The notes beneath the pieces are model-generated. The model ran no database searches. It worked only from the letters and a program-made list of their open reading frames with translations, and was not told where the DNA came from. Shown piece by piece: positions 50 to 5,466 of a stretch of DNA of 37,745 bases. A program made the position numbers and the translations under genes. Each line of letters starts with the position of its first letter. Position 1 is the stretch's first letter. This DNA comes from Candidatus Daviesbacteria bacterium RIFCSPHIGHO2_02_FULL_43_12 (GTDB lineage: Bacteria > Patescibacteriota > Microgenomatia > Daviesbacterales > UBA10151), in NCBI GenBank assembly GCA_001776775.1, contig MFDD01000002.1, positions 1 to 37,745 on the forward strand, read 5' to 3'.

Positions 50-696
50 GTGAACTTTATCGACACTTCTTGGACATCTAACCTGGCCTATGCTGTTGGC
101 TTGATTGCTACGGACGGGTGTTTATCCAAAGATGGAAGACATATCGATCTAACGTCTAAGGATCTTGAGCAAGTTGAGAATTTTAAAAATATCCTTAGCT
201 CGAAGGCTAAAGTTAGTCTGAAGACTAGAGGAACGCCTCCTTTCAAATCATACTATCATATTCAAATTAGTAATGTTTCTTTTTATAGATGGTTAAAAAA
301 CATTGGTCTGACCCCTAATAAATCTAAAACTTTGGGTTCAATTAAGATCCCTGACTCTTATTTATAGACTTCTTACGAGGCTCTTTAGATGGAGATGGAT
401 CAACTTACTCGTACTTTGATCCCCGCTGGAAAAATAGTTTTATGCTGTATACCCAATTCTCTTCCGCGAGTAAGAAGCATATAGAATGGCTTAGCCAGCG
501 AATTTATCTTCATTTTAGGGTAAAGGGCAAGGTTAATTTTGGAGGTAGAATTTATCAGCTACGATACGCAAAGTCAGCCTCAGTAACTCTTCTGAATGGG
601 ATCTATTATAGTGACGTTCTTATCTGTTTAACGAGAAAAAGGTTTAAAATACAACAAGCATTAGCTATAATACAAAAATCAGCCGGGATGCTGTAA
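50..696 (+). pseudogene. Frameshifted LAGLIDADG homing endonuclease
   Basis: Two adjacent reading frames form one two-motif LAGLIDADG endonuclease of about 215 residues. The first (GTG start at 50, 105 residues) carries motif 1, AVGLIATDGCLS. It ends ...IPDSYL at a TAG at 365-367. The -1 frame continues at once as FIDFLRGSLDGDGS, which is motif 2 with its catalytic Asp, and runs to TAA at 694-696. A single missing base near 361 explains the break; nothing around it looks like a programmed slip site. Such enzymes cut long DNA targets and spread introns or themselves by homing. The 3' end overlaps the first 15 bases of tRNA-Leu(GAG), so the stop codon lies in the tRNA D-arm region. No 5' exon of a split tRNA is visible, so this looks like a free-standing gene lodged against the tRNA. 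Confidence 0.8.
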
Positions 697-764
697 TGGT
701 AGCCAGGCTACCTTGAGGTGGTAGTGTCTGAAAAGACGTGGAGGTTCAAGTCCTCTTCCCGGCA
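682..764 (+). tRNA. tRNA-Leu (anticodon GAG)
   Basis: Acceptor arms GCCGGGA and TCCCGGC pair fully, with discriminator A at 764. The anticodon stem CTACC/GGTAG encloses the loop TTGAGGT (anticodon GAG). A long variable arm (GTCT-GAAA-AGAC) marks a class II tRNA, consistent with leucine. The T-loop is TTCAAGT. CCA is not encoded. The 5' end overlaps the 3' end of the homing endonuclease gene. Confidence 0.93.
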
Positions 765-770
765 CTTGAG

Positions 771-1220: not shown

Positions 1221-1270
1221 GGGCACTTAGCTCAGTTGGTTAGAGCGGTCCGATGTCCATCGGACAGGTC
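1221..1270 (+). pseudogene. 5' half of an interrupted tRNA-like gene
   Basis: The sequence begins GGGCACT-TA-GCTCAGTTGGTTAGAGC, a canonical acceptor strand and D-arm, then an anticodon arm GTCCG/CGGAC with an eight-base loop ATGTCCAT. After the variable region (to 1270) it fails to continue into a T-arm. The missing T-arm and 3' acceptor strand (AGTATCC) occur at 1650-1675. Joining 1221-1270 with 1650-1675 gives a 76-nt cloverleaf whose acceptor pairs apart from one C-A mismatch and one G-T wobble. The U33-like position precedes GTC, so an Asp-type anticodon is possible, but the eight-base loop makes identity uncertain. Confidence 0.6.
1244..1270. repeat. 27-bp direct repeat, left copy
   Basis: An exact 27-bp copy of this tRNA anticodon-arm segment lies at 1623-1649. 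The pair brackets tRNA-Val(TAC) and the GIY-YIG nuclease gene, like a target-site or att-type duplication. Confidence 0.85.
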
Positions 1271-1283
1271 GGGGTAAGATTAT

Positions 1284-1357
1284 GGATCCCTAGCTCAGTT
1301 GGTTAGAGCGACTCGTTTACACCGAGTAGGTCAGAGGTTCGACTCCTCTGGGATCCA
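1284..1357 (+). tRNA. tRNA-Val (anticodon TAC)
   Basis: Full 74-nt cloverleaf: acceptor GGATCCC/GGGATCC, D-arm GCTC..GAGC, anticodon stem ACTCG/CGAGT with loop TTTACAC (anticodon TAC), variable AGGTC, T-arm AGAGG-TTCGACT-CCTCT, discriminator A. CCA is not encoded. It sits inside the interrupted tRNA-like gene, three bases upstream of the GIY-YIG start codon. Confidence 0.95.
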
Positions 1358-1360
1358 CAC

Positions 1361-1597
1361 ATGTATTTTGTGTACATCCTCCAGTCTATAAAAAACTCAG
1401 GATATTACATTGGTTCTACAAATGATTTCGAGCGAAGATTAGTGGAACATAACTCAAATCATTCTCACTACGACAGATCTGCGGGACCATTTAAACTAGT
1501 TTTCAAGCAAGAATACCCAACCTCAGAAGCTGCAAGAGCAATTGAGCTTAAGTTAAAAAGCATTAAGAGCAAAGTGATGCTCGAGAATACTAGCTGA
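1361..1597 (+). CDS. Small GIY-YIG endonuclease-like protein (YhbQ/UPF0213 type)
   Basis: A 78-residue single-domain protein. FVYILQS and GYYIGST give the GIY and YIG halves of the active site, FERRL supplies the conserved Arg, and EAARAIELKLKSIK contains the expected metal-binding Glu. Usual length is 80-95 residues; the C-terminus here (KVMLENTS) departs from the typical ending and may be slightly truncated. The family is related to the UvrC N-terminal nuclease and to homing nucleases; in several bacterial groups I recall such genes lying next to tRNA or rRNA genes. The ATG is three bases after tRNA-Val, with no room for its own promoter, so it is probably expressed by read-through from the tRNA. 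Together they sit between two 27-bp direct repeats, which suggests a mobile tRNA-nuclease cassette. Confidence 0.85.
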   Translation: MYFVYILQSIKNSGYYIGSTNDFERRLVEHNSNHSHYDRSAGPFKLVFKQEYPTSEAARAIELKLKSIKSKVMLENTS

Positions 1598-1622
1598 CGG
1601 AGTTATTAAAACAAAAGTGTAA

Positions 1623-1675
1623 AGCGGTCCGATGTCCATCGGACAGGTCCGGGGGTTCGACTCTCTCAGTATCCA
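1623..1675 (+). pseudogene. 3' half of the interrupted tRNA-like gene with duplicated anticodon arm
   Basis: Positions 1623-1649 repeat the 27-bp anticodon arm of 1244-1270. They continue into a T-arm GGGGG-TTCGACT-CTCTC, acceptor strand AGTATCC and discriminator A. This is the part missing from the 5' half. No D-arm lies upstream, so it is not a complete tRNA. Its last ten bases (AGTATCCACA, 1668-1677) recur at 2430-2439. Confidence 0.6.
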
Positions 1676-5309: not shown

Positions 5310-5382
5310 GCCACAGTAGCCAAGTTGGTCAAGGCGGATGCCTGAAGAGCATTTTATTGGGGTTCGATTCCTCACTGTGGCA
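5310..5382 (+). tRNA. tRNA-Phe (anticodon GAA)
   Basis: Acceptor GCCACAG/CTGTGGC, anticodon stem GATGC/GCATT with loop CTGAAGA (anticodon GAA), T-arm TGGGG-TTCGATT-CCTCA, discriminator A. CCA is not encoded. Nine bases separate it from tRNA-Gly(GCC). Confidence 0.93.
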
Positions 5383-5391
5383 CTTATTCGT

Positions 5392-5466
5392 GCGGGGGTA
5401 GCTCAGTGGTAGAGCGTCTCATTGCCAATGAGAAGGTCGCGGGTTCAAGTCCCGTTCCCCGCTCCA
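5392..5466 (+). tRNA. tRNA-Gly (anticodon GCC), CCA encoded
   Basis: Acceptor GCGGGGG/TCCCCGC, anticodon stem TCTCA/TGAGA with loop TTGCCAA (anticodon GCC), T-arm GCGGG-TTCAAGT-CCCGT, discriminator T at 5463, encoded CCA at 5464-5466. A GGGG-cagtgt-CCCC hairpin and an AGAAAA-gtca-TTTTTCT hairpin follow; the latter could terminate. Confidence 0.94.

Follow-up and report, generated by a model that had tools for sequence, protein, structure and literature searches.

Large integrative elements are known to insert at tRNA genes. Several systems built around a nuclease gene come closest to the locus described here. In the mobile ORFs of fungal mitochondria (Allomyces atp6; Glomus atp6, atp9, cox2 and nad3), an endonuclease gene is inserted in an essential gene and brings a foreign gene stretch that restores the host gene, while the displaced native stretch matches that of relatives (PMC3630166). 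SegB of phages T4 and T6, as described in the accessible parts of the literature, is a free-standing GIY-YIG homing endonuclease of the tRNA region (PMC13096335; PMC2988022), which cuts within tRNA genes at the motif RAWTSGAAC (PMC13096335). By our own reading, this motif is the reverse complement of the T-loop sequence GTTCSAWTY. The rRNA genes of CPR bacteria contain GIY-YIG genes in insertions distinct from both group I and group II introns, and the authors of that study doubted that these insertions spread by homing (PMC11270868).

At positions 1221 to 1675 of the window (the whole 37,745-nucleotide stretch of DNA that was analysed), a tRNA gene in two halves encloses a sound tRNA-Val(TAC) and an intact GIY-YIG gene. 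Like the fungal mobile ORFs, this locus combines a nuclease gene within an essential gene with an apparent replacement for the disrupted sequence. In the fungal elements, however, the 3′ coding end is replaced and the hybrid of native 5′ and foreign 3′ parts works, whereas at the present locus the tRNA inside is whole and is flanked by the two native halves, which are dead; a palindromic hairpin at both edges and the location on a bacterial chromosome set the locus further apart. With SegB it shares a GIY-YIG enzyme tied to tRNA genes, but SegB lies between phage tRNA genes, and the accessible portions of the SegB reports describe neither a split native tRNA nor a replacement; moreover, the present protein is a bare domain, and the phage relative that was inspected is not beside a tRNA. 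The CPR insertions also place GIY-YIG genes within structural RNA genes of the same bacterial radiation, but these are rRNA and not tRNA genes, and no replacement gene is present. The closest solved sequences are those of the small single-domain GIY-YIG proteins of the UPF0213 group (PDB 1ZG2, 1YWL). As far as the accessible parts of these sources go, neither SegB nor the fungal mobile ORFs nor the CPR rRNA insertions appear to carry a whole replacement tRNA inside a split one, and a literature search whose coverage stopped short of subscription papers and preprints returned no description of this arrangement in bacteria.

Read along the window, the order of elements is the 5′ tRNA half, a palindromic hairpin (H), 18 bases comprising a spacer and the start of a T stem, tRNA-Val(TAC), two bases, the GIY-YIG gene, 25 bases, the second repeat copy with H, and the 3′ half (Table 1). 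The preliminary description of this DNA had reported a split tRNA-like gene with 27-bp duplications, a sound tRNA-Val(TAC) in the insert and a GIY-YIG gene close behind it, and all these features were recovered. The direct repeat, exact over 27 bp, is embedded in a 34-nt repeat with 94% identity, and we calculate the chance of such a 27-bp repeat within 6 kb at ~1e-9. The cassette measures about 380 bp. An integrase gene was sought between the repeats and is absent; the nuclease is the sole gene there, which does not fit an integrative element in a tRNA gene. A search for a group I intron ribozyme core found no intron family at its cut-off in the window, where the Rfam matches are tRNAs only, and we rejected a group I or other known intron as the insert on this ground.

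Table 1. Features of the split tRNA locus and of its cluster neighbours, in coordinates of the window.
Feature	Position	Strand	Evidence and remarks
5′ part of split native tRNA-Val(TAC)	1221..1247	+	acceptor 5′ strand GGGCACT and D arm; 26/27 vs Val(TAC) of G132, 26/26 vs G032; Val place of Leu-Val-Phe-Gly cluster
Palindromic hairpin H, copy 1, GTCCGATG-TC-CATCGGAC	1248..1265	.	replaces anticodon arm; base pairs maintained through compensatory substitutions among loci
27-bp direct repeat, copy 1	1244..1270	+	exact match to copy 2
Variable region and T stem start of split tRNA	1266..1274	+	end of 5′ remnant
Complete cassette-carried tRNA-Val(TAC)	1284..1358	+	70 bits; 70/75 vs Val(TAC) gene of G008, which is uninterrupted
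GIY-YIG nuclease gene, 78 aa	1361..1597	+	PF01541 E=4.9e-17; alignment A1 of relatives
27-bp direct repeat, copy 2	1623..1649	+	exact match to copy 1
Palindromic hairpin H, copy 2	1627..1644	.	same palindrome as copy 1
3′ part of split native tRNA-Val	1645..1675	+	variable region and T arm, then AGTATCC (acceptor 3′ strand) and A; 25/29 vs Val(TAC) of G132
tRNA-Leu(GAG)	682..765	+	cluster neighbour fixing place of split gene
tRNA-Phe(GAA) and tRNA-Gly(GCC)	5310..5466	+	Phe from 5310, Gly from 5392; downstream members of same cluster

Judging from sequence matches and gene order, the split gene is the tRNA-Val(TAC) of a syntenic cluster. A Leu(CAG)-Leu(GAG)-Val(TAC)-Phe(GAA)-Gly(GCC) tRNA cluster is conserved in relatives, and the split gene occupies its Val place in the window. 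The host gene had at first been taken for a tRNA-Asp; the matches of both halves to tRNA-Val(TAC) and their place in the cluster rule this identity out, and the proposed check for another tRNA-Asp(GTC) in the genome turned up a separate, intact one. What had been described as an eight-base anticodon loop on a 5-bp stem is part of H, a perfect 8-bp palindrome at the anticodon arm position.

A 76-nt cloverleaf can indeed be drawn when the halves are joined, and ARAGORN accepts it as tRNA-like, but the anticodon is unusable: the program types the joined gene as 'tRNA-???(gtcc)', with no assignable anticodon, because H stands exactly at the position of the anticodon arm. In split or permuted tRNA genes the halves jointly hold a usable anticodon, which ARAGORN does not find here. 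The joined acceptor stem (GGGCACT / AGTATCC) has one C-A mismatch and one G-U pair, and the joined fold is no better than that of shuffled sequences (z −0.22, compared with −2.46 for the inner tRNA). In its joined form the split gene reads nothing. Given the missing anticodon and the acceptor mismatch, decay after insertion is the best fit among the three outcomes that had been suggested for this gene. No Val(TAC) other than the inner tRNA turned up in the genome of the window, as far as the Rfam search shows (tRNAs were taken from this search and from fetched stretches); one other valine tRNA, Val(GAC), is present.

Occupied and empty alleles of the same site were found within one genus of relatives (g26). 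Two of its genomes, G038 and G035, have an uninterrupted Val(TAC) of the form GGAGTTG..CAACTCC, and a third, G040, has an uninterrupted Val(TAC) of the form GGAGTCA..TGACTCC. In G034, the GGAGTTG..CAACTCC tRNA-Val(TAC) is split, with H, around a nuclease and a GGAGTCA..TGACTCC tRNA, the latter being identical to the G040 gene at 72 of 74 positions. The downstream genes fam15 and fam17 are common to all four genomes, and tRNA-Phe is also a shared neighbour. The element is thus present in G034 and absent from the same site, among shared neighbours, in G038, G035, G025 and G040, as is seen with homing elements. Empty loci have no nuclease, and none in g26 has an H-like site. The empty form that had been predicted, with one copy of the 27-bp repeat, was not found; empty alleles have a normal anticodon arm and no H.

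The G034 comparison is the strongest evidence that we have, and it indicates that an element entered the resident gene and that, of the two tRNAs, the inner one arrived later. As in the fungal mobile ORFs, the inserted part in G034 is foreign and the displaced part native. In the window both tRNA types have counterparts in its family or class (G132 and G032 for the split gene, G008 for the inner one), and the relatives compared include no exact before-and-after pair for its own genome. By analogy with G034, the inner tRNA of the window is likely to be the newcomer and the split gene the resident.

The architecture recurs as a remnant of a tRNA with a hairpin, followed by a GIY-YIG gene and a complete tRNA of the same kind in either order, often with a second remnant. 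A partial copy of itself lies near 51 of 93 tRNAs located beside a GIY-YIG gene, compared with 21 of 206 other tRNAs (Fisher p 6e-16), and in the fragments beside nucleases a palindromic hairpin replaces the anticodon arm or sits in the D loop. Where both flanks are seen, the order is nested: the 5′ remnant with H, the nuclease and complete tRNA, and then H with the 3′ remnant. The nuclease mostly precedes the tRNA, and nesting in this order occurs in L075, L083, L084, L085, L090 and L095; the tRNA-first order of the window is also found in L170, L181 and L195 (Kiritimatiellales, Flavobacteriales, Verrucomicrobia). For Phe, Ser and others the arrangement is simpler: a tRNA, then the nuclease, then a 3′ remnant. 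Although many of the genomes are metagenome assemblies, the layout is not an assembly error, as it recurs in too many genomes, and isolates, Indibacter alkaliphilus for one, are among the named genomes. At L083 and in the window, the two outer halves belong together and are unlike the inner tRNA. At L075, L080 and others, the remnant does not differ from the carried tRNA outside H, and gene conversion or local duplication would explain this identity as well as import does. Tandem units of a tRNA fragment with H are present at L125, L181 and L190, as if multiplied or left behind, and L125 is without any nuclease gene. Elsewhere in the genome of the window (contigs C1 and C8, L014-L034), a tRNA-Thr(GGT) and an initiator tRNA-Met are apparently interrupted by intron-like inserts.

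The nuclease is a single domain in which every column that is invariant in 22 aligned relatives is intact; it thus has the conserved residues of the GIY-YIG domain. Its relatives were sought with the window's protein as a single query and selected by similarity, so that the following counts are not rates for all GIY-YIG genes: a same-strand tRNA lies within 200 bp in 26 of 29 related genes of relatives and in 51 of 74 named loci across phyla (the remaining 23 have no tRNA within this distance), and an opposite-strand tRNA in 0/29 and 0/74, respectively. The named genomes belong to Patescibacteria, Bacteroidota, Neomarinimicrobiota, Kiritimatiellae, Omnitrophota and others. On the nuclease tree, which is built from 87 columns and has mostly weak forks, tRNA isotype is clustered (44 changes, compared with 65.2 after shuffling; 0 of 200 shuffles as low), consistent with the target-specific lineages of homing endonucleases. 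Of the 41 loci with a tRNA downstream, 28 have a nuclease frame whose stop codon falls within that tRNA, in most cases at the conserved T8-A9-G10 (L075-L098, L133-L191), so that the two are not easily parted. A phage origin was rejected, since the phage matches were limited to a single IMG/VR locus plus ten records from related Rhizobium phages.

Several further nuclease genes and tRNA-like stretches were noted. At L140, L144, L152 and L160, a tmRNA gene is followed after 130-170 bp by a related GIY-YIG gene, and these four nucleases group together on the tree with weak support; at L035 a distant GIY-YIG gene follows the tRNA-Ser(TGA) of the window's genome by ~100 bp, with no visible remnant. 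At 50-696 of the window, a LAGLIDADG endonuclease gene is broken into two frames, the last of which ends inside tRNA-Leu(GAG); G038 has a homologue at the same place, and this pair is possibly the same kind of nuclease-tRNA association in another nuclease family. The ORF at 1724-2356, which has relatives in 4 of the 137 other genomes, was considered as a second nuclease and rejected, having no family match and no tRNA beside the copies of its five relatives. It is followed at 2398-2440 by a further stretch resembling a tRNA 3′ end, which terminates in AGTATCCACA and resembles the 3′ remnant at 1667-1676.

H is not a general repeat of the genome, which holds two copies, both at this locus. Across loci, 98.5% of the cells of H are paired, with 19 double changes and 0 of 500 shuffles as high; the sequences were picked as hairpins, which favours pairing, and the telling part is the distinct pair types (GC, UA, CG, AU) at the outer pair. 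This covariation fits a DNA palindrome and an RNA hairpin equally. H seems to go with the nuclease and not with the tRNA or the host, because (i) H type is clustered on the nuclease tree (12 changes, compared with a shuffled mean of 16.2; 0 of 200 as low), (ii) the GTCGCC-type H forms one clade across Val, Ile and Gly loci, and (iii) two H types occur within one genus. It is not exclusive to this element, since H-like palindromes (GTCCGAYG..CRTCGGAC), read by eye, occur in relatives at the tips of apparent 23S rRNA helices and group I introns (L103, L108, L111, L112, L114, L116, L120, L127). At L115, the anticodon arm of a tRNA-Ala(GGC), GTCCGATGGCATCGGAC, equals H with a one-base centre, and H might descend from such an arm.

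Combining these comparisons, we consider it quite probable that the locus is a homing-type element that invades tRNA genes and supplies a replacement tRNA, here in tRNA-Val(TAC). The core of this idea, a homing-type nuclease gene that enters a tRNA gene with a tRNA of its own, was already in the preliminary description and is supported by the layout in dozens of genomes and by the occupied and empty alleles within one genus; the tRNA-Asp named as its host is not. The nuclease would cut an uninterrupted tRNA gene of its isotype, at a putative site in that gene; the isotype clustering on the tree links nuclease lineages with isotypes. Repair from an element-bearing copy, with the tRNA halves as homologous flanks, would then insert the nuclease, the spare tRNA and H; the invaded resident gene and the replacement tRNA are seen in G034. 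The native gene is left split and deprived of its anticodon arm, as the alleles show, and would neither work nor, if H protects it, be cut again. The supplied tRNA would take over, and the host would come to depend on it. Recombination between the 27-bp repeats, which had been put forward as a way of restoring the gene, would instead yield a dead, H-bearing tRNA that lacks an anticodon, with loss of the only Val(TAC) found, and in this way the host may be held to the element. The homing proposal does not account for the escape of the carried tRNA from cutting, which counts against it.

The same remnants could have arisen by local tandem duplication and decay, in which a nuclease gene would have inserted into or between two copies of a duplicated tRNA gene, the superfluous copy then degenerating, with no homing involved. 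The tandem H-bearing units at L125, L181 and L190 and the identity of remnant and carried tRNA outside H in several loci agree with such a history, as does the amplification by recombination of a tRNA-Tyr and segB segment that is reported for SegB of phage T6 in the accessible part of that study (PMC13096335). We nevertheless regard duplication as unlikely, because it gives neither the nested order nor H at both ends, the two tRNAs of G034 are unlike and have their matches in uninterrupted genes of other species in the genus, and the outer halves at L083 and in the window pair with each other and not with the inner tRNA.

Domestication of the nuclease, which would have acquired a host role in tRNA genes or tRNA metabolism and been kept beside tRNA genes for co-expression, with the remnants as by-products, appears highly improbable: its presence is sporadic within genus and family, a single tRNA cluster may contain several copies (G038), and loci with both flanks visible have lost the native tRNA gene, even if its association with many isotypes and with tmRNA, the overlap of its frame with the downstream tRNA and the unknown role of the UPF0213 proteins would suit a host function. 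The idea that RNA-level joining of the halves yields a working 76-nt tRNA, the insert behaving as an intron, which had also been raised for this DNA, is scarcely credible. It draws on the drawable cloverleaf that ARAGORN accepts and on the group I introns in other tRNAs of this genome, but the joined product would have no anticodon and a mismatched acceptor stem, it folds like shuffled sequence, no intron family reaches its cut-off in the window, and the halves overlap by 27-34 nt, as the 3′ remnant alone repeats the H arm. Joining would, moreover, lose the only Val(TAC) reading. On the absent anticodon and the poor fold we rejected a spliced tRNA.

A bolder extension of the homing proposal, which we put forward tentatively and hold to be somewhat less probable than its negation, is that of a widespread bacterial cut-and-rescue drive, in which each nuclease lineage would destroy a given essential tRNA gene, supply a rescue tRNA and lock itself in through a nuclease-borne H that abolishes the native anticodon and renders clean loss of the element lethal. 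Any likeness to designed cut-and-rescue drives is an analogy only.

An essential tRNA function thus appears to have passed from the resident gene to a cassette of ~380 bp. If true, this would account for the abundance of small unannotated GIY-YIG genes beside tRNA genes across bacterial phyla, reveal a source of tRNA gene replacement and of tRNA pseudogenes, and provide a naturally occurring nuclease that destroys an essential gene and also rescues it.
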